Positions 14,868-25,623 of a DNA stretch of 64,000 bases are shown here, piece by piece. The DNA lies in contig CAIOGZ010000018.1 of assembly GCA_903858015.1 (NCBI GenBank), positions 124,001 to 188,000 on the forward strand. Direction: 5' to 3'. The position numbers and the translations under genes are program-made. Numbering within the stretch: position 1 is the first letter of the stretch; each line of letters opens with the position of its first letter. The DNA comes from an uncultured cyanobacterium (GTDB lineage: Bacteria; Cyanobacteriota; Cyanobacteriia; PCC-6307; Cyanobiaceae). Below the pieces are notes generated by a model. The model had not been told where the DNA came from. It was given only the letters and a program-made list of their open reading frames with translations, and made no database searches.

Positions 14868-15410
14868 TTACGGGGTAATGCCAGCAGCGAAAAGCTGCAA
14901 GCGCTGGCCCTCGGTTTGGGCCTCGGCCAGCAACTGGTTCCAGTCATCCGGAGGGTGGCCGTTCTCTAGCATCTTTCGGAACACCCGATAGGCATCGTCG
15001 CTGCTGCCGTAGGCGCGTTTGCTGTGGTCGTCATTAACCCAGGCGAGCACAATCAGTTTGCTGGCCGTGTGGTAGCGGAAGAAGAGCCGGTACTGCTGGA
15101 AGAACTTGGCCCGAAACCAGTGCTTGTGATCATCGCCCAAGCTGCCGCCTTGGCGATACTCAGAACGGGCTGGATCCTGCGGGATGATGTTGAAGGCTAA
15201 CTTGACGATGGCGGCCAGTCGTTTGCTGGCGTTTTTGTTCATGTAGCCACTCGGGTCCTTCTGTTTGAAGGCCTCAACCTGTTGCGCCAACGCCTCAATC
15301 TGGGCGAGGAAGAGCGGATGCGCGAAAACCGTCCAGCCGTAAACGATCAGCGGTGGGGCCATCGCTACAGCCTTGGCTGGCGTCTTGGATGGCAGCTTGG
15401 CCGCGCTCAT
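14868..15410 (-). CDS. yhaV: YhaV-type toxin of a type II toxin-antitoxin system
   Basis: This 180-residue RelE-superfamily ribonuclease toxin carries the YhaV family hallmarks in order: NGW-like start region YGWTVFAHPLFLAQIEAL, LAAIVKLAFNIIPQDPARSEYRQGGSLG, HKHWFRAKFFQQYRLFFRYH and IVLAWVNDDHSKRAYGSSDDAYRVFRKML. The last two contain the conserved Arg/Lys/His residues used for RNA cleavage. The start ATG overlaps the antitoxin stop (ATGA at 15407-15410). Toxins of this family cleave mRNA in association with ribosomes. It is intact at normal length (about 154-180). Confidence 0.88.
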   Translation of the reverse strand: MSAAKLPSKTPAKAVAMAPPLIVYGWTVFAHPLFLAQIEALAQQVEAFKQKDPSGYMNKNASKRLAAIVKLAFNIIPQDPARSEYRQGGSLGDDHKHWFRAKFFQQYRLFFRYHTASKLIVLAWVNDDHSKRAYGSSDDAYRVFRKMLENGHPPDDWNQLLAEAQTEGQRLQLFAAGITP

Positions 15411-15745
15411 TCATCATCTGCCGAGAGGGCCGCATCGAGATCAAGCTCGATGCCAGCGACCAGCGATTGGAGCCGTTCGAGCCGGGCCGCATCCACGGCC
15501 TGCAGGCGCTCGGGATGGCTGGCCATGTCGCGAGCCAGAAAGCCCAGGAACTGGCCGAGCACCGGGTCTTCAGCTTCTGGAGCATCGGGGCTTGTAGAGC
15601 GCGACAGCACTACTTCGCCGCTGGGGCGAAAGCTGTAGCGGATCTTGTCGCGCTTGCCGAGCCGAAGGGCGCGACGCACGCTTTCCGGCACGGTGGTCTG
15701 GTAGCGGTCGGTCAATGTGGATATGGCGTCGGGGCTGGCAAGCAT
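15407..15745 (-). CDS. prlF: PrlF-type antitoxin, AbrB-like DNA-binding
   Basis: This 112-residue antitoxin starts at ATG 15745 (MLASPDAISTLTDRYQTTVPESVRRAL) and shows the swapped-hairpin AbrB/SpoVT fold: STLTDRYQTTVPESVRRALRLGKRDKIRYSFRPSGEVVL. The acidic helical C-terminal half (DPVLGQFLGFLARDMASHPERLQ) would bind the toxin. It is the first gene of the pair, as expected. A palindrome 60-75 bp upstream is its likely operator for autoregulation. An in-frame ATG at 15778 would add 11 residues and place the start closer to the palindrome. Confidence 0.87.
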   Translation of the reverse strand: MLASPDAISTLTDRYQTTVPESVRRALRLGKRDKIRYSFRPSGEVVLSRSTSPDAPEAEDPVLGQFLGFLARDMASHPERLQAVDAARLERLQSLVAGIELDLDAALSADDE

Positions 15746-15778
15746 GGGGCGCTGCGGCCAAAGGGTGGATGGCTGCAT

Positions 15779-15820: not shown

Positions 15821-16045
15821 TGGCATGGCCGAGCGGCAGCCGATGGGGCAGCTCCCAGGTGGGGCAGGAAGGCACGGTGCATCAGCGACGTCCACTTCTG
15901 CCAGCCGAGCTGGTCGTTGCTGGGTGGGCGAGCTGAAGCGCAGCCTTGGGGTGATCTCGGCCGCCGCCGGCCACCTTTAGCCGCTGGGGTGGAAGTGGTG
16001 GGCATGGCGTAGTTGATGGCTCGATGGGTGGGCGAGGGAATCGGC
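15821..16045. other. Gap between TA system and VP1 terminator
   Basis: No supportable gene is seen between the toxin-antitoxin operator and the terminator of the leftward VP1 gene. The ORFs here are composition-biased shadows. Confidence 0.5.
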
Positions 16046-16070
16046 AAAAAATCGAGGCGCCTGCGGCGCC
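16046..16070 (-). terminator. Intrinsic terminator of VP1, shared VP-type
   Basis: On the minus strand two GGCGCC boxes separated by three bases form a stem followed by TCGA and a run of six T. The same element, with a different three-base loop, follows the other two FGE variable-protein genes. Confidence 0.8.
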
Positions 16071-16187
16071 ATCGGCGCTGGACGACATTCGGGATCCGCT
16101 GGCATCGCCTCGCCGCCAGCTAGTTGAAAACCAATACCAAAACCTAACAGCCAAGTGTAAAGAACTAAAGAGTTAAAGTGTAAAGAT

Positions 16188-17072
16188 TTAGCCCTGGGGG
16201 AGGCAACAGACGCGGAAACCAATGGTGAGGACGCGGAGGTCCGGGGGGTTGATGTAGCGGTAAGCCGAGCGGCAGTTCCCGGGGAAGTTGCCCCACGAGC
16301 CGCCGCGCAGCAGCCTACTTTTACGATCATTCTCTTTGGCTCCTTCTTCAATCCAGGCACGCCCATCCTCTGGTGCACCTTCATAGTTGCCATGCCAATG
16401 ATCCGCACACCATTCCCACACATTACCGTGCATGTCATGCAATCCCCAAGGGTTGGAAGGGAAGGTGCTCACATCGGTTGTTTGATGCCGAAACTCGCCC
16501 TTCTTGCTATCGCCATACACTTTTGTGCCATCATAATTGGCAAGCTTGGTGCTGATCGTAGAACCACAATGGAAGGGTGTGGTAGTGCCCGCCCGGCAGG
16601 CATATTCCCACTGGGCCTCGCTGGGCAGGGTGTAGTTGCGGCCGGTGCGCTGGCTGAGGCGATGGCAAAACTCCATTGCATCGTCCCAGCTCACCCCTTC
16701 CACCGGCCTGTGGTCGCCTTTGAAATGGGAGGGATTGGGATCAAGTTTCCGGTTCCAGGCGCGCTCGGCTCGGTTAGGACGCCACTGGGCCACCAGGCGC
16801 CACTGGGCCTGGGTGATCGGAGTTTGGGCCAAGAAAAAGCCCTGGAGCTGCACCAAATGCTGGGGGCCCTCGTTACCGCTGCGTTGCGGTTCCTCCGCTG
16901 GCGAGCCCATCAAAAAACGCCCCGGCGGAATCCAGAGCATGGTGAGGCTGGTGGAATTGTCTGCTCCGAGGGCTTCGCGGAAGCCCTGGGTGCGGCGGCG
17001 ATGGGTGAGCAGAAACCGATATGTAGGGGCTGAAGCGCCTCCAGCGGCTTGGCGGGTGGCGGAGGCGCTCAT
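16188..17072 (-). CDS. DGR variable protein 1 (VP1), FGE-sulfatase/C-type-lectin fold
   Basis: The start at ATG 17072 (MSASATRQAAGGASAPTYRF) parallels VP3; an upstream in-frame ATG would add 30 basic residues. The 294-residue protein is almost entirely one FGE-sulfatase domain: LTMLWIPPGRFLMGSP, QTPITQAQWRLVAQW, PVEGVSWDDAMEFCHRLSQRTGRNYTLPSEAQWEYACRAG, GLHDMHGNVWEWCAD. The C-terminal 40 residues are a DGR variable region (LLRGGSW to GFRVCCLPQ). In this family the lectin-like surface of the variable region binds ligands. Catalytic FGE cysteines are not both present (WGNFPGNC). It lies directly after the broken reverse transcriptase on the same strand. Confidence 0.85.
   Translation of the reverse strand: MSASATRQAAGGASAPTYRFLLTHRRRTQGFREALGADNSTSLTMLWIPPGRFLMGSPAEEPQRSGNEGPQHLVQLQGFFLAQTPITQAQWRLVAQWRPNRAERAWNRKLDPNPSHFKGDHRPVEGVSWDDAMEFCHRLSQRTGRNYTLPSEAQWEYACRAGTTTPFHCGSTISTKLANYDGTKVYGDSKKGEFRHQTTDVSTFPSNPWGLHDMHGNVWEWCADHWHGNYEGAPEDGRAWIEEGAKENDRKSRLLRGGSWGNFPGNCRSAYRYINPPDLRVLTIGFRVCCLPQG
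16191..16313 (-). repeat. DGR variable region VR1
   Basis: This is the 3'-terminal ~123 bp of VP1. The upstream flank (LLRGGSW codons) and downstream flank (FRVCCLPQ codons) are identical in VR1, VR2 and VR3. The core of about 16 variable codons is GGC AAC TTC, then GGG AAC, TAC, TAC ATC AAC, GAC CTC CGC GTC CTC ACC ATT. Relative to VR2 and VR3 nearly all differences fall at first and second positions of codons whose consensus is AAC. Confidence 0.85.
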
Positions 17073-17177
17073 GGCTGCACGCCAGGGGAGGATCGAAAAG
17101 ATCGTAAGAGCGCAGCGGAAACGGTGGGCTGTCGTGGCCGCGGAGATCGCGGCACGGCCCACCGGGCGCTGTGCGGA

Positions 17178-18005
17178 TCAGTCGGCGCCGAGGCGTTGGC
17201 TGATCACGGGAGCGGGTCTGGACCCCTCCTGTGCTCCCAGAGGATTCCCATCCCCTGGCTCTGACGTTGAAGGGTGCTGGGGGAGGCAACAGACGCGGAA
17301 ACAGACATACCGCAGGTAGGCGCCGATGCCGGGCAGGTAGGCGAGGCGGTGGTCGAGGGCATCGAGGTGCAGGTTGGCGAGGAATTGGGTGGTGAGGTTG
17401 CCGATTGGCAGGCCGCGGGGCCGCTCAAGGGGCGTCAGCAAGGTGTCGCCGGCAAAACCCTCCAGGGCCGGGCCGGGGCTGGCGCCGTTGGCGAGGATGC
17501 GATCGAGCAGCCAGAGGGTGCCGGGGCAGGCGATGCGCTCGGCCAGCTGTTGGCGCAGGATGGTGAGATCGATGCTGGGGAAATAAAAGCGGATGTCGCC
17601 GCTGAACACCCAACGATGGCGGCCGGATTCGGCCACGAAGCGGCGCAGGGCCTTGTGGCTGCCGAAGCCGAGCCGGTTGGCGTAGCTGGTGGCGATGAAA
17701 CGCTTCTGCAGGGGCGGCACGATGGCAGCGCAGAGGGCGTGGTGCACAACCCGGTCCCGGTAGGGGGCGGCGGAGATCAGGCGGCGTTTGGGTTCACGGA
17801 TTTCGAATTGGCGGTAGGGCCCGGGTTTGTAGGAAAACGTTTGCAGTTCGTGCTGCAGTTGAAAGAGATTGGCCTCCAACTGGGCATTGAAGGCGAGCAC
17901 GGCGGGCCGATAGCGCTTGCCCTTTTGGGCGCGCAGGGCGGCGGCATGGAGTGCGGCGAAGCTGGTGAAGCGGGGGTAGAGCTCCGTGAGCGGCACCTCA
18001 GGCAT
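17178..18005 (-). pseudogene. DGR reverse transcriptase, truncated at the YxDD motif
   Basis: Residues 1-234 are a normal DGR reverse-transcriptase N-terminal part: KRRLISAAPYRDRVVHHAL, ATSYANRLGFGSHKAL, motif 3 FSGDIRFYFPSID with the first catalytic Asp, and motif 4 GLPIGNLTTQFLANLHLDAL (the DGR/group-II type). At GAYLRYV, where YVDDF should follow, the frame switches to CFRVCCLPQ, the 3' flank of the variable regions, and then runs ~35 unrelated residues to a stop. Both catalytic Asp of YxDD and the thumb domain are missing, so the enzyme should be inactive. The start overlaps the avd stop by 8 nt. Confidence 0.88.
17277..17302 (-). repeat. Remnant of a DGR repeat 3' flank inside the RT ORF
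   Basis: A 26-nt block identical to the 3' flank of VR1-VR3 (minus-strand GTTTCCGCGTC...CCCCCAG) sits at the break in the reverse transcriptase. It is followed by a C instead of the G seen after all three VRs. Its place after the RT fits the 3' end of the lost template repeat, or of a deleted variable region. The adenine-rich core is absent. Confidence 0.8.
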
Positions 18006-18396
18006 GGTGAAGTTCAGCGGGGCGCTGCTGAAGTTGGTGGCTGAGCCAACCGCTGTGTTGTTTGGCGATGGCGGTGATCAACCGGCTGGCGTGTTCGTAG
18101 CGCTGCAGCTCGATCAACTGGAACGAATGCAGCAGGCGGATCTGCAGCTGGATCACCACGATGTGGGCCTTGAGGGGTTCGAGGATGGGCAGCTTGGCGC
18201 GGGCATAGCGGGCCTGCACGAGTTGTTCGAGCAGGTGATAGAGATGGCCGATCAAGCGATCACCGAGGCCGAATCTGTGCTGGCGGGGCAGGCGCTGCAA
18301 TAGGGGCACAAACCAGCGGATCAGATCAAGGCAGGCTTCGATGATCGGCAGCTCGCCGCTGCTGGTGGCTAGGTTGGGATCTGAGGGAATGGACAT
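17998..18396 (-). CDS. avd: DGR accessory variability determinant Avd
   Basis: This 132-residue, all-helical basic protein is of the Avd/four-helix-bundle type, which forms a pentameric barrel that binds the DGR reverse transcriptase and template RNA. Family-like blocks are PIIEACLDLIRWFVPLLQRLPRQHRFGLGDRL, HLYHLLEQLVQARYARAKLPILEPLKAHIV and LQRYEHASRLITAIAKQHSGWL. It looks intact. It overlaps the RT start by 8 nt, so the two would be co-translated. Unusually, the ATG lies 11 nt after the T-run of the VP2 terminator and no Shine-Dalgarno is visible. Confidence 0.82.
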   Translation of the reverse strand: MSIPSDPNLATSSGELPIIEACLDLIRWFVPLLQRLPRQHRFGLGDRLIGHLYHLLEQLVQARYARAKLPILEPLKAHIVVIQLQIRLLHSFQLIELQRYEHASRLITAIAKQHSGWLSHQLQQRPAELHHA

Positions 18397-18407
18397 GGGG
18401 CATGTAC

Positions 18408-18436
18408 AAAAAAAATCGCGAGGCGCCTACGGCGCC
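18408..18436 (-). terminator. Intrinsic terminator between VP2 and avd
   Basis: Minus strand: GGCGCC-GTA-GGCGCC, then TCGCGA and eight T. It ends 11 nt before the avd ATG, so transcripts of the TIR-MoxR-VP2 operon reach avd only by read-through unless another promoter exists. Confidence 0.8.
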
Positions 18437-18557
18437 ACAGGGAACATAATGGAGCTTCCCAGAAAGGCTGGGGCTTCTTCATAGAATCTAAGCCAATATC
18501 CACAGCCGACAATTAAAAACCAACAGACAAACAGCCAAGTGTAAAGAATTAAAGGGT

Positions 18558-21356
18558 TTAAGGGTAAAGAATTAAGTCCTGGGGGAGGCAACAGACGCGG
18601 AAACCGAAGGTGTTGACGCGGTAGACCGGGGGGAAGCCGTTGCGGGAAGCCGAGCGGCAGACCCTGGGGTTGCTGTACCACGAGCCGCCGCGCAGCAGCC
18701 TTCTATCCAGGTCATTCTTATTTCCTTTAGCTTCTTCATCAATCCAGGCACGTCCATCCTCTGGTGCCCCTTCGTAATTGTCATGCCAATGATCAGCACA
18801 CCATTCCCATACATTGCCGTGCATGTCATGCAATCCCCAGGTATTGGCGGGGAAGCTAAACACATCTGTGGTTTGCTGGCGATAGTCTCCCTTCTGGCCA
18901 TCCCCATACACGTCGTTGCCATTATAGTTTGCCAACTTCGTACTGATCGTGGCGCCACAATGAAACGGCGTGGTGGTGCCCGCCCGGCAAGCATATTCCC
19001 ACTGGGCTTCGCTGGGCAGGGTGTAGTTTTTGCAGGTGCGTAGCCGCAGCCTTTGGCAAAAAACCATCGCATCGTGCCAGCTCACATTCACCACCGGGCG
19101 CTGCTCACCTGCAAAGCGCTCAGCATCATCAAGCTTGGCCACCGGATCGGCATCCAGCGCCTCGGGCCAAAGCTCCCCATCCTCATATTCCCGCCGCTGC
19201 CATTGCGCCACCGCCCGCCACTGGGCCTGGGTGATCGGGGTTTGCGAGAGGAAGAACTCCTTGAGCTGCACTTCATGCTGGGGGCCTTCGTCGTCGTACC
19301 GGCCTGGTTCATCGGCTGGGGAGCCCATCAGGAAGCGGCCGGGGGGGAGGTGGAGCATGGGGAGAGCAATGCCCTGGGGCCTGCGTGCCCCGTTGGCAGG
19401 AATCGGCGGCTCGCTGCCCCATGAAACCGACAGCATCTCCTGATAACCCAGGCGCGACGCCTCGTGATATTCGGGTTCCGGATTGCCCGGCTCGAGGCTA
19501 GCTGTGGTGAACACGAACAACTGGGCCGGCAGTTCTTTGATTTCAGCGGTGCTAATGGGCAACTCCAGAACCCCGGGATTCCGCTGCAATTGAGCGCACT
19601 CAAAGTCGATCGGTTCGAAGTTGAACTGATTGGCGGGGAAAGGATCGGCGGGCTCCAGGCCAGACCCCTGCCGCAGCTTGACGACAAAGTCGCGGTAGAC
19701 CTTGCCTGGCAAGCGTTCCAGCCGATCGGCGGTCACGGTGGCGAAATGGCGTAATCCTTGCTCCAAATCCTTGAACTGCTCTGGCAGAGGTATGTTGGGG
19801 TCGGTGAGGATGGCCTCAAACGAGTGTCCAGTGCCGAGCTGATTCCAACGCCGCTCCAACACATCGCTAACGGCACGGATCACATCCAGCGTGTCGGCAG
19901 GGCTGAGGCGCTCGCCCAGGAGCTCGGCCACGCCGGGATCCAGCTCGAACTGCAGCGTGTGCGCCAACGTGTCCGAGTTCTGAGCGGCGCGGCAACGCAG
20001 CAGGCCACTCACCAGCACTTCCGCCATCGGCAGCGGTGTAGTGACATCTTTCACCTTCGCCTCTAGCAACAGCCGCAGGATTGGCAAGGTGAGCACCGGA
20101 GCCGCCGCCACCACCATCAGCAAGCGCTGCGCCTGGGCGGAGGCATCAGCCTGGAACTCCTGCCAGCGGCCCAGCGCCAGCTCCCGCACAGCGGCAGGGG
20201 ATGGATCCGCTGTGGCCTGGGAAGGGATCAGGAAGTGGGCCAGCAGCTGGTCGCGGCGCTCGCTGGCCTGAGGGATCAGGATGCCGGAGGTTGCCATGGT
20301 GTGATCGCCCATCACCATCGCCGCCCAAATCGCCAGCTCCTGACCCTCCAGCGTGATCACCGGCAGGGGCAAACCCGATGAATCATCCAAGGTCTGCCAG
20401 CGGCTGGGGGGCTCGACGCGATACCTCTGATTAGGGCAACCGGGCAGGGTGTTGCGAACCGAAACCGGCGGTGCAATGCCCAGGGCGGTGCGGTCCCACC
20501 AGCCGATCGGCAACATGTTGAGCAGCACCACGGGCGCCTGCTCGCCCCAAAGCTCCAGCAGGGAAAACATGCGGCCATCCCACCAGTGGGCTCCCGCCGC
20601 ATCGGAGATCAACAGCACCAGGGTTGGCTGCTCACTCCAACCCTCGCCGCCAGGTCGCTTTTGAGAGGGATCAAGGCAGCGCAGGTCCACCGAGCGGAAG
20701 GCTTGGCTGCTGGCCAGGATGGCGCGCAACTCCTCCGCCAATGGACGCCAAACCTGCATCGAAATGCCTCCATCCAGCAACACCAGCAACCGGAAGCAGG
20801 GCTCCAGCGTTGGCTTCAGTACGGGTGCCAACAGGCGCGTTTCGGCATAGGCTTCCACCGTGGCGTTTTCATCCAGCCACTGACGGTGTGGGCTGGGCAC
20901 TTGGCCCATCAAGGGCTGAAACAAGCGCAGCACCGCTAAGCGGTCCTGGAGCAATGGCGATTGCTCCAGCTGCAGCGGCAGCAGCCCCGGCAGGTCACTG
21001 CTGCTGGGCAGCAACTCCGACGGCAGCAATCGGGCCTCAGCGGCACCACGGGCTTTGACTTGTGCTGGCGGAAAGAAGGGAATCAGCGGATCTTCTTCCG
21101 GAGTCAGAGCACTGAGGGGACCTTGTCTGAGGCTAGGAAGAACAGGTTTACTTTGGTCGCTGAATTCTGGCTTCCCATATTTGGACTTTACATAGCTGGG
21201 GGCCCAAATCGATGATCTGACTGGTTGATCAGAAGCAGGCGTTAATGGTGATCGAGACAACCAAAGAATATCGGCGACTTCCCTGGGCGAAAGGGAATGG
21301 GGGGCTTCACCATTGAGGCCTTCGATCAGCGTCGCCAGGAACTCTGCTGTTGCCAA
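18558..21356 (-). CDS. DGR variable protein 2 (VP2): SAV_2336/vWA-like domain fused to FGE domain
   Basis: The TTG start at 21356 lies 5 nt after the MoxR gene and gives 932 residues. N-terminal helical segment: SLSPREVADILWLSRSP. About residues 180-340 form a vWA-like alpha/beta domain (FRLLVLLDGGISMQVWRPLAEELRAIL, TLVLLISDAAGAHWWDGRMFSLLELWGEQAPVVLLNML), with a degenerate D-x-G-x-S metal site, as in SAV_2336-type proteins encoded beside MoxR ATPases. A helical middle (residues 370-600) and a beta linker follow. From about residue 680 comes a complete FGE domain (MLHLPPGRFLMGSPADEP, LPSEAQWEYACRAG, HDMHGNVWEWCAD) ending in VR2 and a six-residue extension (DLILYP). It is likely the sensor/adaptor of the MoxR-TIR module. 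Confidence 0.83.
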   Translation of the reverse strand: MATAEFLATLIEGLNGEAPHSLSPREVADILWLSRSPLTPASDQPVRSSIWAPSYVKSKYGKPEFSDQSKPVLPSLRQGPLSALTPEEDPLIPFFPPAQVKARGAAEARLLPSELLPSSSDLPGLLPLQLEQSPLLQDRLAVLRLFQPLMGQVPSPHRQWLDENATVEAYAETRLLAPVLKPTLEPCFRLLVLLDGGISMQVWRPLAEELRAILASSQAFRSVDLRCLDPSQKRPGGEGWSEQPTLVLLISDAAGAHWWDGRMFSLLELWGEQAPVVLLNMLPIGWWDRTALGIAPPVSVRNTLPGCPNQRYRVEPPSRWQTLDDSSGLPLPVITLEGQELAIWAAMVMGDHTMATSGILIPQASERRDQLLAHFLIPSQATADPSPAAVRELALGRWQEFQADASAQAQRLLMVVAAAPVLTLPILRLLLEAKVKDVTTPLPMAEVLVSGLLRCRAAQNSDTLAHTLQFELDPGVAELLGERLSPADTLDVIRAVSDVLERRWNQLGTGHSFEAILTDPNIPLPEQFKDLEQGLRHFATVTADRLERLPGKVYRDFVVKLRQGSGLEPADPFPANQFNFEPIDFECAQLQRNPGVLELPISTAEIKELPAQLFVFTTASLEPGNPEPEYHEASRLGYQEMLSVSWGSEPPIPANGARRPQGIALPMLHLPPGRFLMGSPADEPGRYDDEGPQHEVQLKEFFLSQTPITQAQWRAVAQWQRREYEDGELWPEALDADPVAKLDDAERFAGEQRPVVNVSWHDAMVFCQRLRLRTCKNYTLPSEAQWEYACRAGTTTPFHCGATISTKLANYNGNDVYGDGQKGDYRQQTTDVFSFPANTWGLHDMHGNVWEWCADHWHDNYEGAPEDGRAWIDEEAKGNKNDLDRRLLRGGSWYSNPRVCRSASRNGFPPVYRVNTFGFRVCCLPQDLILYP
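18576..18698 (-). repeat. DGR variable region VR2
   Basis: This is the 3' part of VP2 with the same constant flanks as VR1 and VR3. Core codons are TAC AGC AAC, AGG GTC, TCC, AAC GGC TTC, GTC TAC CGC GTC AAC ACC TTC, read between fixed CCC, TGC CGC TCG GCT, CGC and CCC CCG codons. All differences from the other VRs are at positions where the reconstructed template has A. Confidence 0.85.
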
Positions 21357-21361
21357 GACCC

Positions 21362-22513
21362 TCAGCTGCCTTCCGGGCTGCCATCGCGGCCACGCAAACC
21401 CTTGTAGAGCACCGCGCGCAGCGTTTCGACCTGTTCTTTTGTCGGCCCTGCTGAGTTGGATTGTGTCAGGAGATGGAGAACATTGAGCAGTTGATCCGTG
21501 GCCCGATCTTCCTGCTTGGTTGTCTCCAGAAAAGTAACAATCTCGTCAAGCACGTTTTTCTTATCTGCCAACTTGCCGCGATTCTGCTGCTCGAAGTGTT
21601 TGCGCACGAGCGACTGGAAGGCGGCCTGATCGGTTGGCGCGGGCATGTCAACGCGGATGCAACGGCGGTGAAAGGCAGCCGGGAAATCCCGTTCGCGATT
21701 GCTGGTCATCACCACAATCGGAAATTCATGGCAGCGCACCCTGCCGGCGGGGATCTGCGCCGTAGCACCCGGATCGTGGGTGCGGACAGGGTGGGAATTC
21801 TTGTTGGCGCGCCGCTTAGCTTCTCGAATCAGCTGGGGGATCTCGTATTCTCCTTCTTCGAACAGATTGAGCAGCTCGTTGGGCAGCTGCAGATCAGATT
21901 TGTCAAGCTCATCGATCAACAACACCCTGGGCCGCTGGAAAGGAAGAAAGGCGGTGCCCACTGGCCCCAAGCTAATATAATCAGCAACGGGAAAATCATC
22001 GGGTGATCGCTTGCCCTTGTCTGCGTCCGACGTGGCGGCGAACTGGGAATCATGCAGCCGGCCCAGGGCATCGTAAAGATACAACCCATCCTCAATCAGG
22101 CGGCTACGAGGTGTGATCGGCCAATGCAACACCGGCCCTAGCCGCAACTCCCAGGCGATCGCATGGGCCAGGCTGGTTTTACCGGACCCCGGCGTGCCGG
22201 TGATGAGCAACGGCCGGCGCAAATGGATGGCCGCATTCACCGCCAGCCGCACCCGTTCTGCCGGCTCGGTGAGCTGATTTGACTCATCCCTCGGTAGCTG
22301 GAGCACTTCGCCGCGTCGGCGGGTTCTCTCCTGCTGCTCTGGCAACTTTTCGACCTGTTGCCAATACTCCTCATCCGCAGAGTTGCTCGTATCAGGCTCA
22401 TGCTCCTGGCGTTGCCAGGCACGCCAAGGCGGAGCTTCCGGCCATCGCGTGGCTGGATCTATTTGGGAACCGGAGTTGGAGAACAGATCCCAGTTGATCG
22501 GCGCGCTGGTCAT
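21362..22513 (-). CDS. MoxR-type AAA+ ATPase of a ternary conflict system
   Basis: This 383-residue AAA+ ATPase has Walker A GTPGSGKTS at about residues 105-113, Walker B VLLIDELDKSD, the sensor region IVVMTSNRERDFPAAFHRRC with an arginine-finger-like RRC, and a C-terminal helical lid (FLETTKQEDRATDQLLNVLHLL). MoxR ATPases remodel partner vWA proteins using ATP. The ATG overlaps the TIR-gene stop (ATGA at 22510-22513) and the stop is 5 nt from the VP2 start, a tight three-gene operon. It is probably the NTP-dependent switch between the VP2 sensor and the TIR effector. Confidence 0.88.
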   Translation of the reverse strand: MTSAPINWDLFSNSGSQIDPATRWPEAPPWRAWQRQEHEPDTSNSADEEYWQQVEKLPEQQERTRRRGEVLQLPRDESNQLTEPAERVRLAVNAAIHLRRPLLITGTPGSGKTSLAHAIAWELRLGPVLHWPITPRSRLIEDGLYLYDALGRLHDSQFAATSDADKGKRSPDDFPVADYISLGPVGTAFLPFQRPRVLLIDELDKSDLQLPNELLNLFEEGEYEIPQLIREAKRRANKNSHPVRTHDPGATAQIPAGRVRCHEFPIVVMTSNRERDFPAAFHRRCIRVDMPAPTDQAAFQSLVRKHFEQQNRGKLADKKNVLDEIVTFLETTKQEDRATDQLLNVLHLLTQSNSAGPTKEQVETLRAVLYKGLRGRDGSPEGS

Positions 22514-24141
22514 AACGGGGAGGGAGAGATGGCACGGGTGGCCCCGCGGGCCTGGGGGGTGATCGGAGGGATGCGTTGCCAGTGATCCAGCATCAGCACG
22601 AGATGCTTCGCGGCCCCATCTTTGAAGAGCATCTTGCGCTGCCGGACTACTTCATCGTAGCGAACACAACTAGAGCAGATGGGATCACCATGTTGATGGC
22701 CTGAAAGCATCTCGTAGCGCTGCAGATGGGCCATCCCCTTGACAGCGCTGACCTTGGCACCATGGCGATACCAAATCGCAATCGGCACCATGGATTCAAC
22801 CAACCCGTCAAACCAGCTATGACGTTTGGTTTGATCCAGCGGGAATGGCTTCAGCCGCTTGATTCCGGCATCCTGATCCTCTTCAACCAGCGAGGCGAGA
22901 AGGTGAAGGGGATCAGCGGCAAGTTTCCCGGCGCACCATTTGCCATGTCCATCGGTAAGCTTCTGGATCTTGTTTTGCAAGCGCGGACGGTTTGAATTGC
23001 AAGAACCCAGCAGGCGATCCCCCGGACGCAGGATAAAAGGAATGGATTGCAACAAGGTAATGGCTAAGTTGCCGCGTTGTTCCACCACCAGCTCTGACCA
23101 GGGTGCATCCAGTAACTCCGTGGGTGCGAAGATCTCGAGCACCGGCAGTTTTGTGTTGTGCCTGGCCCAGCTCAGCAGCGCTGTCAGGATGGTGGCGATG
23201 GCTATTTCTTTCTCAAGCGGTTCATCGAAGACCACCATATTGCGGTAGAGATCAAGATCCTCCAGGATATTGAGCTTCCGATAGGTGTTTGTATCCTCGA
23301 CCGCAACATATGCCTTCCAGGTGTAGTGGCGGGTGTTTTCTGCCCGAGAACGGGGCCTTTCCAGCACCAAGGCAATGTAAGAAATCGTATGCAATGACGT
23401 CTGAGCTGGGTAAGCGAGAGTTTTTAATTGCTGCTCCAGAGCCTGAACTAGCGTTGCTGCTGGCCTGTTGCTGTTATCAAAAAAGGCCGTCAATTGGGGC
23501 CAGCCCAGGGTCTGCAAAGTGTTCAACTGTGGGAACACCTCCTGCAGCCGAGCAGCCTCCGGGAAGCTTTCGCGCACAGCACGGCGAAAACAGGTTTCAA
23601 CGCTGTCGGCCGCCATCGCGGCGTGCTGAACAGCCAGCAGGCGAAAAGCTTCTAAGGCAGCTCTGGATTCCCTATCTTCTGGCAGCGCCAGGCTCGAATT
23701 GGGCTTCTCCCAAGCGCCTTTGATCTTACGGGCAATGTTCGCTAGAGCTTGATCTCGTTTGTGCCCTACAAGCGCGTTGAGCGGAGGCTTGGGATTGATT
23801 GGCGATTGAAATTTGCCAATTTCCGTTTCATCCCAAAGACAATCGGAAATTAAGACTGGCAAAACAGTGACTTGATCTAACCGTGCGGCTTCTAGCAAGC
23901 GCGGTAGCTCTTGGTCCCGAATAAAGTCGGAACTGAGAAAGTTGGCACTGACTAGCAGAACAGCCACCTTGGCTCTATTGAGAGAGTTGTCAATCTCGAC
24001 CGACCATTCCTGGCCTGGGATGATATCTCTGTCGCTCCAAACATCAAGCCCGTTATTTTCAAGAGGCTTAAGCTGCTTTCGCAGCATCGTGAGCCACTTC
24101 TCATCCGCATGGCTATAGCTGATAAACACACGATCTCTCAT
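22510..24141 (-). CDS. TIR-domain protein with VMAP-C-like C-terminal region
   Basis: The start at ATG 24141 (MRDRVFISYSHADEKWLTMLRKQL) gives 543 residues. The N-terminal ~140 residues are a TIR/TIR_2-type domain: VFISYSHADE, LDVWSDRDIIPGQEWSVEID, KVAVLLVSANFLSSDFIRDQELP. TIR domains of defence systems often degrade NAD. A helical linker follows. From about residue 250 the protein has the layout of vWA-MoxR-associated proteins (VMAP-C): LPVLEIFAPTELLDAPWSELVVEQ and SMVPIAIWYRHGAKVSAVKG. It heads the operon with MoxR and VP2, so it is the predicted toxic effector. The VMAP-C assignment rests on motif memory and context. Confidence 0.8.
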   Translation of the reverse strand: MRDRVFISYSHADEKWLTMLRKQLKPLENNGLDVWSDRDIIPGQEWSVEIDNSLNRAKVAVLLVSANFLSSDFIRDQELPRLLEAARLDQVTVLPVLISDCLWDETEIGKFQSPINPKPPLNALVGHKRDQALANIARKIKGAWEKPNSSLALPEDRESRAALEAFRLLAVQHAAMAADSVETCFRRAVRESFPEAARLQEVFPQLNTLQTLGWPQLTAFFDNSNRPAATLVQALEQQLKTLAYPAQTSLHTISYIALVLERPRSRAENTRHYTWKAYVAVEDTNTYRKLNILEDLDLYRNMVVFDEPLEKEIAIATILTALLSWARHNTKLPVLEIFAPTELLDAPWSELVVEQRGNLAITLLQSIPFILRPGDRLLGSCNSNRPRLQNKIQKLTDGHGKWCAGKLAADPLHLLASLVEEDQDAGIKRLKPFPLDQTKRHSWFDGLVESMVPIAIWYRHGAKVSAVKGMAHLQRYEMLSGHQHGDPICSSCVRYDEVVRQRKMLFKDGAAKHLVLMLDHWQRIPPITPQARGATRAISPSPL

Positions 24142-24604
24142 CGGCGACCAGCTCCCGCACACGCACCTTTGCTGGATGTCACTCTGGGCGGCTCGCTGGT
24201 GTATACGAGCGGGTGGTGTGAGTAAGTGGTGTTTCCAGGAGGCTGGTTCAGCTGCTCAGGCATGGGTGGGCTAGCGATTCCGGTAGCTGGTTGGCTGATC
24301 TTAAGCCCAACTGCTGTGGTATTAGCAGCTGAGCGATGCCCCGCCTCTAAGGGTGGATGCATTGAGGTCCTGCCGGCCCAGCACCTCAGCAGACTCATTC
24401 CACCCACCTGATCCAGTGCCAAGGCACGGCCAGGCGAGAGAGCCCAGTAGGGGAGGAAAGCGCACGGCTAGCTCGTAACTGAGGCGAGATCAAGCCCCCT
24501 TAGCCCTTGTTCAGGGGCCCCAAACCCCTTTACAGCAAGGACAACACCGGCGGATCTTGAAGCATGGCCTGTCGCCGTACCTGATGACGCCAGCCTAGAT
24601 GCCC
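24142..24604. other. Promoter region of the TIR-MoxR-VP2 operon
   Basis: This is 463 bp without a supportable gene, between the VP3 terminator and the TIR gene on the same strand. It must carry the operon promoter. No obvious operator palindrome or small RNA is visible. Confidence 0.5.
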
Positions 24605-24717: not shown

Positions 24718-25623
24718 TTAGTCCTGGGGGAGGCAACAGACGCGGAAACCGACGGGGTCGTTGAGGTAATCCGGGGGGCTGATGTAGCGGTAAGCCGAGC
24801 GGCAGTTCCTGGGGTGGCAGTTCCACGAGCCGCCGCGCAGCAGCCTTCTGTTCATGTCATTCTTGTTTTGATTGGCTTCATCATCGATCCAAGCACGCCC
24901 ATCCTCTGGCGCTCCTTCGTAGTTGTCATGCCATTGATCCGCACACCATTCCCAAACATTGCCGTGCATGTCATGCAATCCCCAGGCATTGGCGGGGAAG
25001 CTAAACACATCGGTGGTTTGCTGCCGATAGTCTCCCTTCTCGCCATCCCCATACACCTGGCGACCATGATAATTGGCCAACTTCGTGCTGATTGTGTCAC
25101 CATAATGAAATGGTGTAGTAGTACCAGCCCGGCAAGCATATTCCCACTGGGCTTCGCTAGGCAGGGTGTAGTTCTTGTCGGTGCGCAAGGCCAGCCTCCC
25201 GCAGAACGCTTTTGCTTGCATCCAGCTCACATTCACCACCGGACGCTGCTCACCCAGAAAGCGCTCAGCATAATCAAGCTTCGCCACTGGATCGGCATCC
25301 AGCGCCTCTTCGGGCCAGCGTTTCGCATCCTCATGCTCCAACCGCACCCATGCCGCCACCGCCCGCCACTGGGCCTGGGTGATCGGGGTTTGGCCCAGCA
25401 GAAATTCTCCCAGCCTGACCCGATGCACGGGCCGTTCTCGATATGAACTGCCTGCCTCCGTCTCCGGCGCACCCATCTCAAAGCTGCCGGCCGGGATGCG
25501 CAGCATGGTGAGCGCCACCCCCTGGGCCAGCGGTTCGCGGTGGGCCCAGTGGCGGCTGCGCCAGCGCAGGATCCGCCAGGCTTCGGCAGGTTGCTGGCTC
25601 TGCGTCGCGCGGGGGCTGGCCAT
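24718..25623 (-). CDS. DGR variable protein 3 (VP3), FGE-sulfatase/C-type-lectin fold
   Basis: This 301-residue single-domain protein starts MASPRATQSQQPAEAWRILRW. FGE blocks: VALTMLRIPAGSFEMGAPETE, QTPITQAQWRAVAAWVR, RPVVNVSWMQAKAFCGRLALRTDKNYTLPSEAQWEYACRAG, GLHDMHGNVWEWCADQW. It ends in VR3. Its variable core reads WNCHPRNC, so the C-H-x-x-x-C spacing of the active-site Cys pair of true FGEs is present here but not in VP1 or VP2. It lies first in the island with its own terminator, so it may be transcribed independently. It is most likely a diversified ligand-binding protein; catalytic FGE activity cannot be excluded. Confidence 0.85.
   Translation of the reverse strand: MASPRATQSQQPAEAWRILRWRSRHWAHREPLAQGVALTMLRIPAGSFEMGAPETEAGSSYRERPVHRVRLGEFLLGQTPITQAQWRAVAAWVRLEHEDAKRWPEEALDADPVAKLDYAERFLGEQRPVVNVSWMQAKAFCGRLALRTDKNYTLPSEAQWEYACRAGTTTPFHYGDTISTKLANYHGRQVYGDGEKGDYRQQTTDVFSFPANAWGLHDMHGNVWEWCADQWHDNYEGAPEDGRAWIDDEANQNKNDMNRRLLRGGSWNCHPRNCRSAYRYISPPDYLNDPVGFRVCCLPQD
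24721..24843 (-). repeat. DGR variable region VR3
   Basis: This is the 3' part of VP3 with constant flanks identical to VR1 and VR2. Core codons are AAC TGC CAC, AGG AAC, TAC, TAC ATC AGC, GAT TAC CTC AAC GAC CCC GTC. GAT is one of the few changes not explained by adenine mutagenesis (third-position C to T). Confidence 0.85.

Follow-up and report, generated by a model that had tools for sequence, protein, structure and literature searches.

The window (the whole 64,000-nucleotide stretch of DNA that was analysed, part of contig C18 of genome G000, from an uncultured cyanobacterium) contains a locus at which an avd gene, part of a reverse transcriptase (RT) gene and three variable proteins, each with a variable region (VR), are found together with an AAA ATPase and a TIR-domain protein (Table 1). 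The locus is recognizable as a diversity-generating retroelement (DGR), in which the Avd is identified by its match to PF22296 and the VRs lie at the 3′ end of CLec/FGE targets, differing mainly at adenines from a template repeat (TR), for which we used the TR of the related genome G250 since the locus has lost its own. The RT ends at RYV and lacks the catalytic YxDD, and the adenine-rich TR is missing in cis, with just its 26-nt 3′ end left. Elsewhere in the window, at 14868-15778, is a YhaV-like toxin gene (PF11663), with a small open reading frame upstream that perhaps encodes an antitoxin.

Table 1. Features of the DGR locus, with coordinates in the window.
Feature	Coordinates	Strand	Remarks
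Truncated RT open reading frame	17178-18005	minus	275 aa
RT N-terminal part, up to RYV of the YxDD box	17304..18005	minus	87% identity to G250 RT; PF00078
RT open reading frame, C-terminal extension	17178..17303	minus	encoded by TR 3′ end and its downstream flank
TR 3′-end remnant, 26 nt	17277..17302	minus	identical in 5/6 VRs of the genome, 24/26 nt in the sixth
TR 3′ structured RNA element (model R1)	17202..17283	minus	103.8 bits at C18:141202-141283, by construction, as this copy belonged to the R1 training alignment
avd, open reading frame	17998..18396	minus	PF22296 bAvd E 8.8e-15; 85% identical to L042 avd over 127 aa
Variable protein 1, FGE-sulfatase fold	16188..17162	minus	PF03781 E 1.7e-53
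VR of variable protein 1	16194..16314	minus	C18:140194-140314
Variable protein 2, C-terminal FGE-sulfatase fold	18558..21356	minus	PF03781 E 1.5e-52
VR of variable protein 2	18579..18699	minus	C18:142579-142699
AAA ATPase adjoining variable protein 2	21362..22513	minus	PF00004, PF07728
TIR-domain protein adjoining AAA ATPase	22510..24162	minus	PF13676 E 2.4e-17
Variable protein 3, open frame ending GFRVCCLPQD	24718..25623	minus	open reading frame; Pfam scan covered variable proteins 1 and 2
VR of variable protein 3	24724..24844	minus	C18:148724-148844

A preliminary description had proposed that a normal RT switches abruptly to a 26-nt block shared with the VRs, and this is what we find, with the RT part at 17304-18005 and the block at 17277-17302. 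The frame is that of a DGR RT up to RYV, its match to PF00078 (RVT_1) being confined to profile positions 8-142 of 205, yet it is not quite as normal through GLPIGNLTTQF as had been thought, since region 4 reads IGNLTTQF in the window vs IGNLTSQF in intact relatives (loci L042-L047). After GAYLRYV, the frame enters the block GTTTCCGCGTCTGTTGCCTCCCCCAG, and the base at 17303 fits neither the RT nor the TR side of the fusion. A search of G000 for a 21-nt part of GTTTCCGCGTCTGTTGCCTCCCCCAG, with two mismatches permitted, found seven sites, all exact, and the reversed pattern used as control gave 0 hits. These sites are the fusion and six VRs (hereafter family A), three of them in the window and one each on contigs C6, C88 and C95; the full 26-nt block is present in five of the six, and the C88 VR carries its first 24 nt. 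The claimed identity with VR 3′ sequence holds, but the block belongs to the TR/VR repeat itself, as its 3′ end, and not to a flank, as it had been labeled. Past the block, the fusion continues with CACCCTTCAACGTCAGAGCC, which is the TR 3′ flank of G250, and the six VRs continue differently. Because the fusion matches this flank and none of the VR continuations, the block derives from a TR, and a derivation from a VR was rejected.

Close strains had been suggested as a place to look for an undeleted locus, and a related genome has one. Among genomes that keep the copy intact, G250 (contig C157, CAIZQU010000157.1; locus L042) is the nearest, with an RT 87% identical to that of the window, an intact YVDD and the gene order avd-RT-TR, as at the window locus. 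The alignment between the two stops at L042:1496, in the YVDD codons, and resumes at L042:1991, in the last TR bases, so that ~495 bp are missing from the window; past the join, the window is collinear with the G250 TR 3′ flank and, beyond it, with the target gene that follows. YVDD and the thumb are retained throughout L042-L047, with a TR after the RT in each (shortened at its 5′ end in L047). Comparison with L042, and with L042-L047 together, bears out the proposed loss of both YxDD aspartates and the thumb, and of the adenine-rich core of the TR, and the G250 copy supports the further proposal of a single deletion between the RT and the adjacent TR. Such a deletion would have run from just before the RT catalytic aspartates to the last bases of the TR. 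Both YxDD aspartates would have gone with it, as would the thumb and the adenine-rich template; avd, the RT fingers, the target genes and the RNA element that lies 3′ of the TR would have stayed. As judged from the TR ends of relatives, the two sides of the join have ~3 nt in common (TCG) and the join is one base off a simple 3-nt overlap join; the deletion probably arose by illegitimate recombination.

The same join might stem from faulty assembly, or from a structural variant carried by part of the population, with an intact RT and TR in the other cells. Mixtures of this kind are on record: in Thiohalocapsa PB-PSB1, according to the text available, degraded copies of DGR loci are found together with intact variants of the same loci (PMC10907252). 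The G000 assembly consists of 100 contigs and could lack a TR or an undeleted variant of the locus. We nevertheless regard this explanation as unlikely: the two ends share so little sequence, the join lies ~141 kb into a 252,694-bp contig with flanks collinear with G250, and no other piece of the RT C terminus or of a family A TR is found among the assembly matches read. Querying G000 with the L042 RT C terminus (E up to 1) gave matches on C1 and C26 and a weak one on C66, none of them near C18, and a location of the RT remainder on another contig was rejected. A single genuine deletion is thus the reading that we retain.

The age of this deletion can be gauged from the RT remnant, which has accumulated 12 non-synonymous and 33 synonymous private changes (vs G250 and G280), against a random expectation of 2.9 non-synonymous to 1 synonymous; the branch of the intact G250 RT has 18 and 26, respectively. 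By this measure, the remnant still shows purifying selection, which acted over most of its separate history, so that the RT was lost recently. Selection of this kind, together with the lack of an internal stop in the fragment, is also what one might see if the truncated RT had been kept as a working protein, e.g., as a partner of Avd or a regulator. We find this scarcely credible, since a very recent loss predicts the same selection signal and the tail of the fragment is encoded by the TR flank, which is outside the RT gene in intact relatives. What happened at the locus looks like one recent deletion by which a system that hypermutates the cell's own sensor genes lost its template together with the half of its copying enzyme that is active.

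Whether the variable proteins are now frozen depends on what the rest of the genome can supply, and the preliminary description had made its verdict subject to an intact RT acting in trans. G000 has one intact DGR RT, on contig C26, within a cassette of avd, full RT with YVDD, TR and VR, in which the VR differs from the TR at 13/24 adenines and 0/100 other sites. The enzyme half of that proviso is accordingly borne out, but its template half is not, as no matching TR for family A is found in the assembly. No family A TR other than a 29-nt remnant in the window was seen among the matches read from a query of G000 with the L042 TR (E up to 1, 24 matches), a reading that covered all but the three weakest, on C71, C47 and C32, and no TR bearing the family A 3′ end was found elsewhere in the assembly at up to two mismatches. 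An RT acting in trans would therefore have no template for the six VRs.

The VRs themselves were compared with the TR of the closest intact relative. Relative to the G250 TR, 9-17 of 25-27 adenines are changed in the six family A VRs (15/27, 16/27 and 11/27 in the three in the window). Not counting the flank base, the window VRs have 3, 2 and 3 non-adenine differences, with 2, 2 and 1 of these falling at positions 31/94; when these two positions, which must have been A in the lost TR of G000, are set aside, a hand count gives 2, 0, 1, 3, 0 and 5 for the six VRs, the C6 and C95 VRs having 3-nt indels besides. With just 0-5 such differences per VR, decay is not visible and was not accepted as proof of freezing. 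The six target genes are long open frames of 319-1459 codons from stop to stop, which would fit continued diversification of family A by the C26 RT with an unassembled or diverged TR, as would the intact RT and Avd on C26 and the RT-less TR cassettes of relatives (see below), which look as if they were served by an RT in trans. Besides the missing family A 3′ end, however, TR-B, the best other TR of G000, differs from the six VRs at 15-20 non-adenine positions, and we judge diversification in trans very improbable. Since the template went along with the enzyme, the six VRs are most likely frozen despite the intact RT-Avd pair on C26. Our preferred reading is that the window locus is very probably a DGR killed recently by one ~0.5-kb deletion, from which we infer that mutagenic homing has ceased at this locus.

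A further outcome concerns the sequence left behind 3′ of the lost TR. Searched with one mismatch permitted, a pattern based on the TR 3′ flank has 16 sites in 7/300 Cyanobiaceae genomes and 0 control hits, and the flank is predicted to fold with 22 pairs, six of which show compensatory changes among 15 sequences. A covariance model built from it (R1) finds 22 elements in 9/42 genomes of the genus; one of the 22, in G307 (32.7 bits), has no TR before it and was judged probably spurious. Rfam has no family at the gathering threshold in window positions 16000-19000, and the C26 element matches no Rfam family even at E up to 1. A DGR in which an RNA adjoining the TR recruits the RT and Avd is reportedly that of a Bordetella phage. 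In the available text on that RNA, such recruitment is accompanied by priming of cDNA synthesis (PMC12875486), and by analogy the conserved RNA 3′ of the TR in cyanobacteria is likely its counterpart. As a common handle, this RNA could allow one RT-Avd pair to serve several TRs; the RT of an extra cassette would then be dispensable, and its loss tolerated for as long as the TR stays. At the window locus, the deletion took the TR too, and family A most likely has stopped.

The genome as a whole has six R1 elements, with a full RT beside one, and, beyond what the preliminary description could see in the window, other cassettes of G000 have also lost their RT. Contig C1 (L145:6740-7450) carries a second broken DGR, in which the start of avd is joined to pieces of an RT, which lack the residues from about 48 to 253 (L045 numbering) and are followed by TR-B. 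Flank base aside, six of the seven VR-B depart from TR-B only at adenines, and the seventh has eight other changes. Family B was not accepted as proof of action in trans: the RT-B remnant, with 6 non-synonymous/12 synonymous, 5/7 or 5/4 changes by comparison set, has so few neutral changes that the death of RT-B, too, may postdate the last homing. On C48 there is a decayed TR, and C95 has a TR without avd or RT (TR-D, C95:10998-11125) plus a second, mostly lost TR (C95:9375).

TR-D is informative because it recurs, without avd or RT, in 6/42 genomes of the genus (G000, G243, G250, G300, G301 and G306). The stretch from the end of the family D VR to the start of the TR, 191-249 nt with no avd or RT in between, can be aligned in six species at 72-97% pairwise identity, so this RT-less layout was probably inherited. 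A full DGR RT is present in 8/42 genomes, and all six TR-D genomes are among these eight, for which the random chance is 28 in 5,245,786 by our own arithmetic, which ignores kinship. VR-D, which was not found in G000, differs from its own TR at 12/21 adenines and 0/103 other sites in G250, at 5/24 and 1/100 in G306, and at 13/23 and 19/23 adenines in two G300 copies that have the same 2/101 other changes; the corresponding values are 9/23 and 7/101 in G243, and 11/22 and 9/102 in G301. We also compared each VR-D with the TR-D of other species, among five species, G000 being left out for want of a VR-D. Against foreign TRs, G250 VR-D has 5-15 non-adenine mismatches and G306 VR-D has 4-19; the G300 VRs fit the G306 TR as well as their own (two non-adenine differences) and the remaining TRs less well (8-17), and the VRs of G243 and G301 are closer to the TR of another species (three and five) than to their own. 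TR-D itself differs at 12/124 sites between G250 and G243. Homing that stopped when the RT was lost predicts like drift in VR and TR, so that homing in G250, G300 and G306 looks later than the species splits. The way VR-D departs from its TR almost only at adenines in these three species suggests that an RT may have acted in trans; the non-adenine differences of the G243 and G301 VRs, and the lack of a VR-D in G000, speak against continued use of family D there. A GTC triplet in G250 TR and VR (CAC in other TR-D) was considered as proof of homing after the split and was weakened by the finding that the G301 VR also has GTC. In G300 and G306, the RT-less TR-D lies ~4-5 kb from an intact RT on the same contig, and at these RT loci (L230, G300:C111; L234, G306:C83) the RT and avd are intact beside an adjoining TR that has no 5′ half. 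The target beside the intact RT of G300 carries a D-type VR, and in G306 (83% complete) the RNA element behind the RT's own TR is gone and TR-D, ~4 kb away, has the sole R1 element found.

Similar cassettes occur across the class, where R1 has matches in 80/388 genomes. Outside G000 and G048, 113 R1 elements were listed, 60 with a DGR RT match within 3.5 kb (counting partial matches and either strand) and 53 without. The 53 RT-less regions were examined together with flanks of at most 4 kb in either direction, eight of them having <2 kb of upstream sequence. An RT profile made from 40 named RTs detected no full RT in these regions, DGR RT fragments in nine, an RT-like match on the other strand in one (L276) and nothing in 43; avd was detected in 5/53 at E below 1e-7, two weaker matches not being counted. 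At named RT loci, the RT profile recovered 30/30 and the Avd profile 29/30, both control sets including training sequences. An adenine-biased VR (at most two non-adenine and at least five adenine differences) is paired with the TR in 19/53 RT-less regions and 24/29 named RT loci, and reversed TRs gave 0 pairs in either set. VR and TR are 280-570 nt apart in 15 of the 19 RT-less regions, as against 1.6-2.8 kb in 20 of the 24 RT loci. No RT fragment is present in 15 of the 19 either, of which ten have zero non-adenine differences and one (L309) has avd. For six RT-less pairs in five genomes, picked because the RT locus of the genome was at hand (an RT fragment lies near two of them), the VR departs from its own TR at 0, 0, 0, 1, 0 and 1 non-adenine sites, whereas the TR of the RT locus in the same genome differs from the best sites at these pairs at 22, 13, 27, 23, 13 and 18. 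Seven of the 15 fragment-free pairs are in genomes in which no RT was detected among the best candidates scored (at most five per genome, E up to 1e-40); the absence of an RT from these genomes is therefore uncertain, and the seven are unexplained by action in trans unless an RT was missed. Genomes that combine RT-less cassettes and adenine-only VRs with no RT hit are G570, G399, G392, G378 and G578.

The related genomes suggest that cyanobacteria commonly have template-only versions of DGRs that rely on an enzyme encoded at another site. We lean modestly toward the view that cassettes consisting of a target with its VR, a TR and a 3′ RNA element are a stable and widespread non-autonomous form of cyanobacterial DGR, in which a shared RT-Avd would recognize the RNA in trans, several template RNAs would program one enzyme and cassette RTs would decay as in the window. 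Were this true, several diversification programs of a cyanobacterium could run on one enzyme acting on separate template RNAs, and a cassette that lost its RT, as the window locus did, could go on diversifying its targets as long as its template was not lost too. The window, as a clean case of RT and TR lost together, separates the two requirements.

The window locus alone is one more broken DGR. Earlier reports cover DGR RTs that are truncated, strains that have only the targets, incomplete DGRs active in trans and one RT-less TR-VR remnant in Nostoc. DiGReF, in the text available, reports DGR RT genes truncated by mutation beside VR/TR pairs and judges them very recent inactivations, as we do for the window; those cases involve nonsense mutations, frameshifts or an insertion element with VR/TR intact, whereas one deletion took both the catalytic half and the TR here (PMC3521204). 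Thiohalocapsa PB-PSB1 likewise has several DGRs per genome, some without RT or TR, with a MoxR ATPase and FGE/CLec targets, and its activity in trans was deduced from VRs matching a TR at all non-adenine sites. As far as the accessible part of that report goes, however, transposon and MITE-like sequence had replaced or interrupted its RT or TR, and its trans targets used the TR of another locus, unlike the RT-less cassettes here, which have their own TR and a matching VR (PMC10907252). Isolates of Treponema denticola with 0 TR, 0 RT and 2-6 target genes appear in the portion available of another report; there, TR and RT are both absent, whereas the window retains avd, part of the RT and the TR 3′ RNA element (PMC4891356). 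A cyanobacterial parallel is all3226 of Nostoc sp. PCC 7120, with TR-VR homology and, according to the text at hand, no RT gene or pseudogene nearby; it was described as a remnant, whereas the RT-less pairs reported here recur across cyanobacteria and share a structured RNA (PMC7517822). In a literature in which subscription papers were thinly covered, so that novelty is unproven, we found no description of a recurrent RT-less TR-VR class or of the R1 element, and these cassettes seem under-described. Because a survey such as DiGReF starts, in its available description, from RT sequences, RT-less cassettes would be missed by it; they can be found directly through the structured RNA immediately 3′ of the TR.

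Two further RTs are broken near the same point. In Trichormus sp. NMC-1 (L059), the RT open reading frame ends shortly after YVDD, and no thumb or R1 was found downstream; in G573 (L261, contig C122), the RT is cut shortly after YVDD and fused to the 5′ part of a TR. With the window, this makes three cases of RT breakpoints near YxDD, which may be a hot spot for such breaks. At two other loci, L281 (G489) and L171 (G048:C14:42937), a TR-like repeat ends the target gene and the RNA element lies directly behind it, a layout that looks as if VR-TR recombination had removed avd and the RT.
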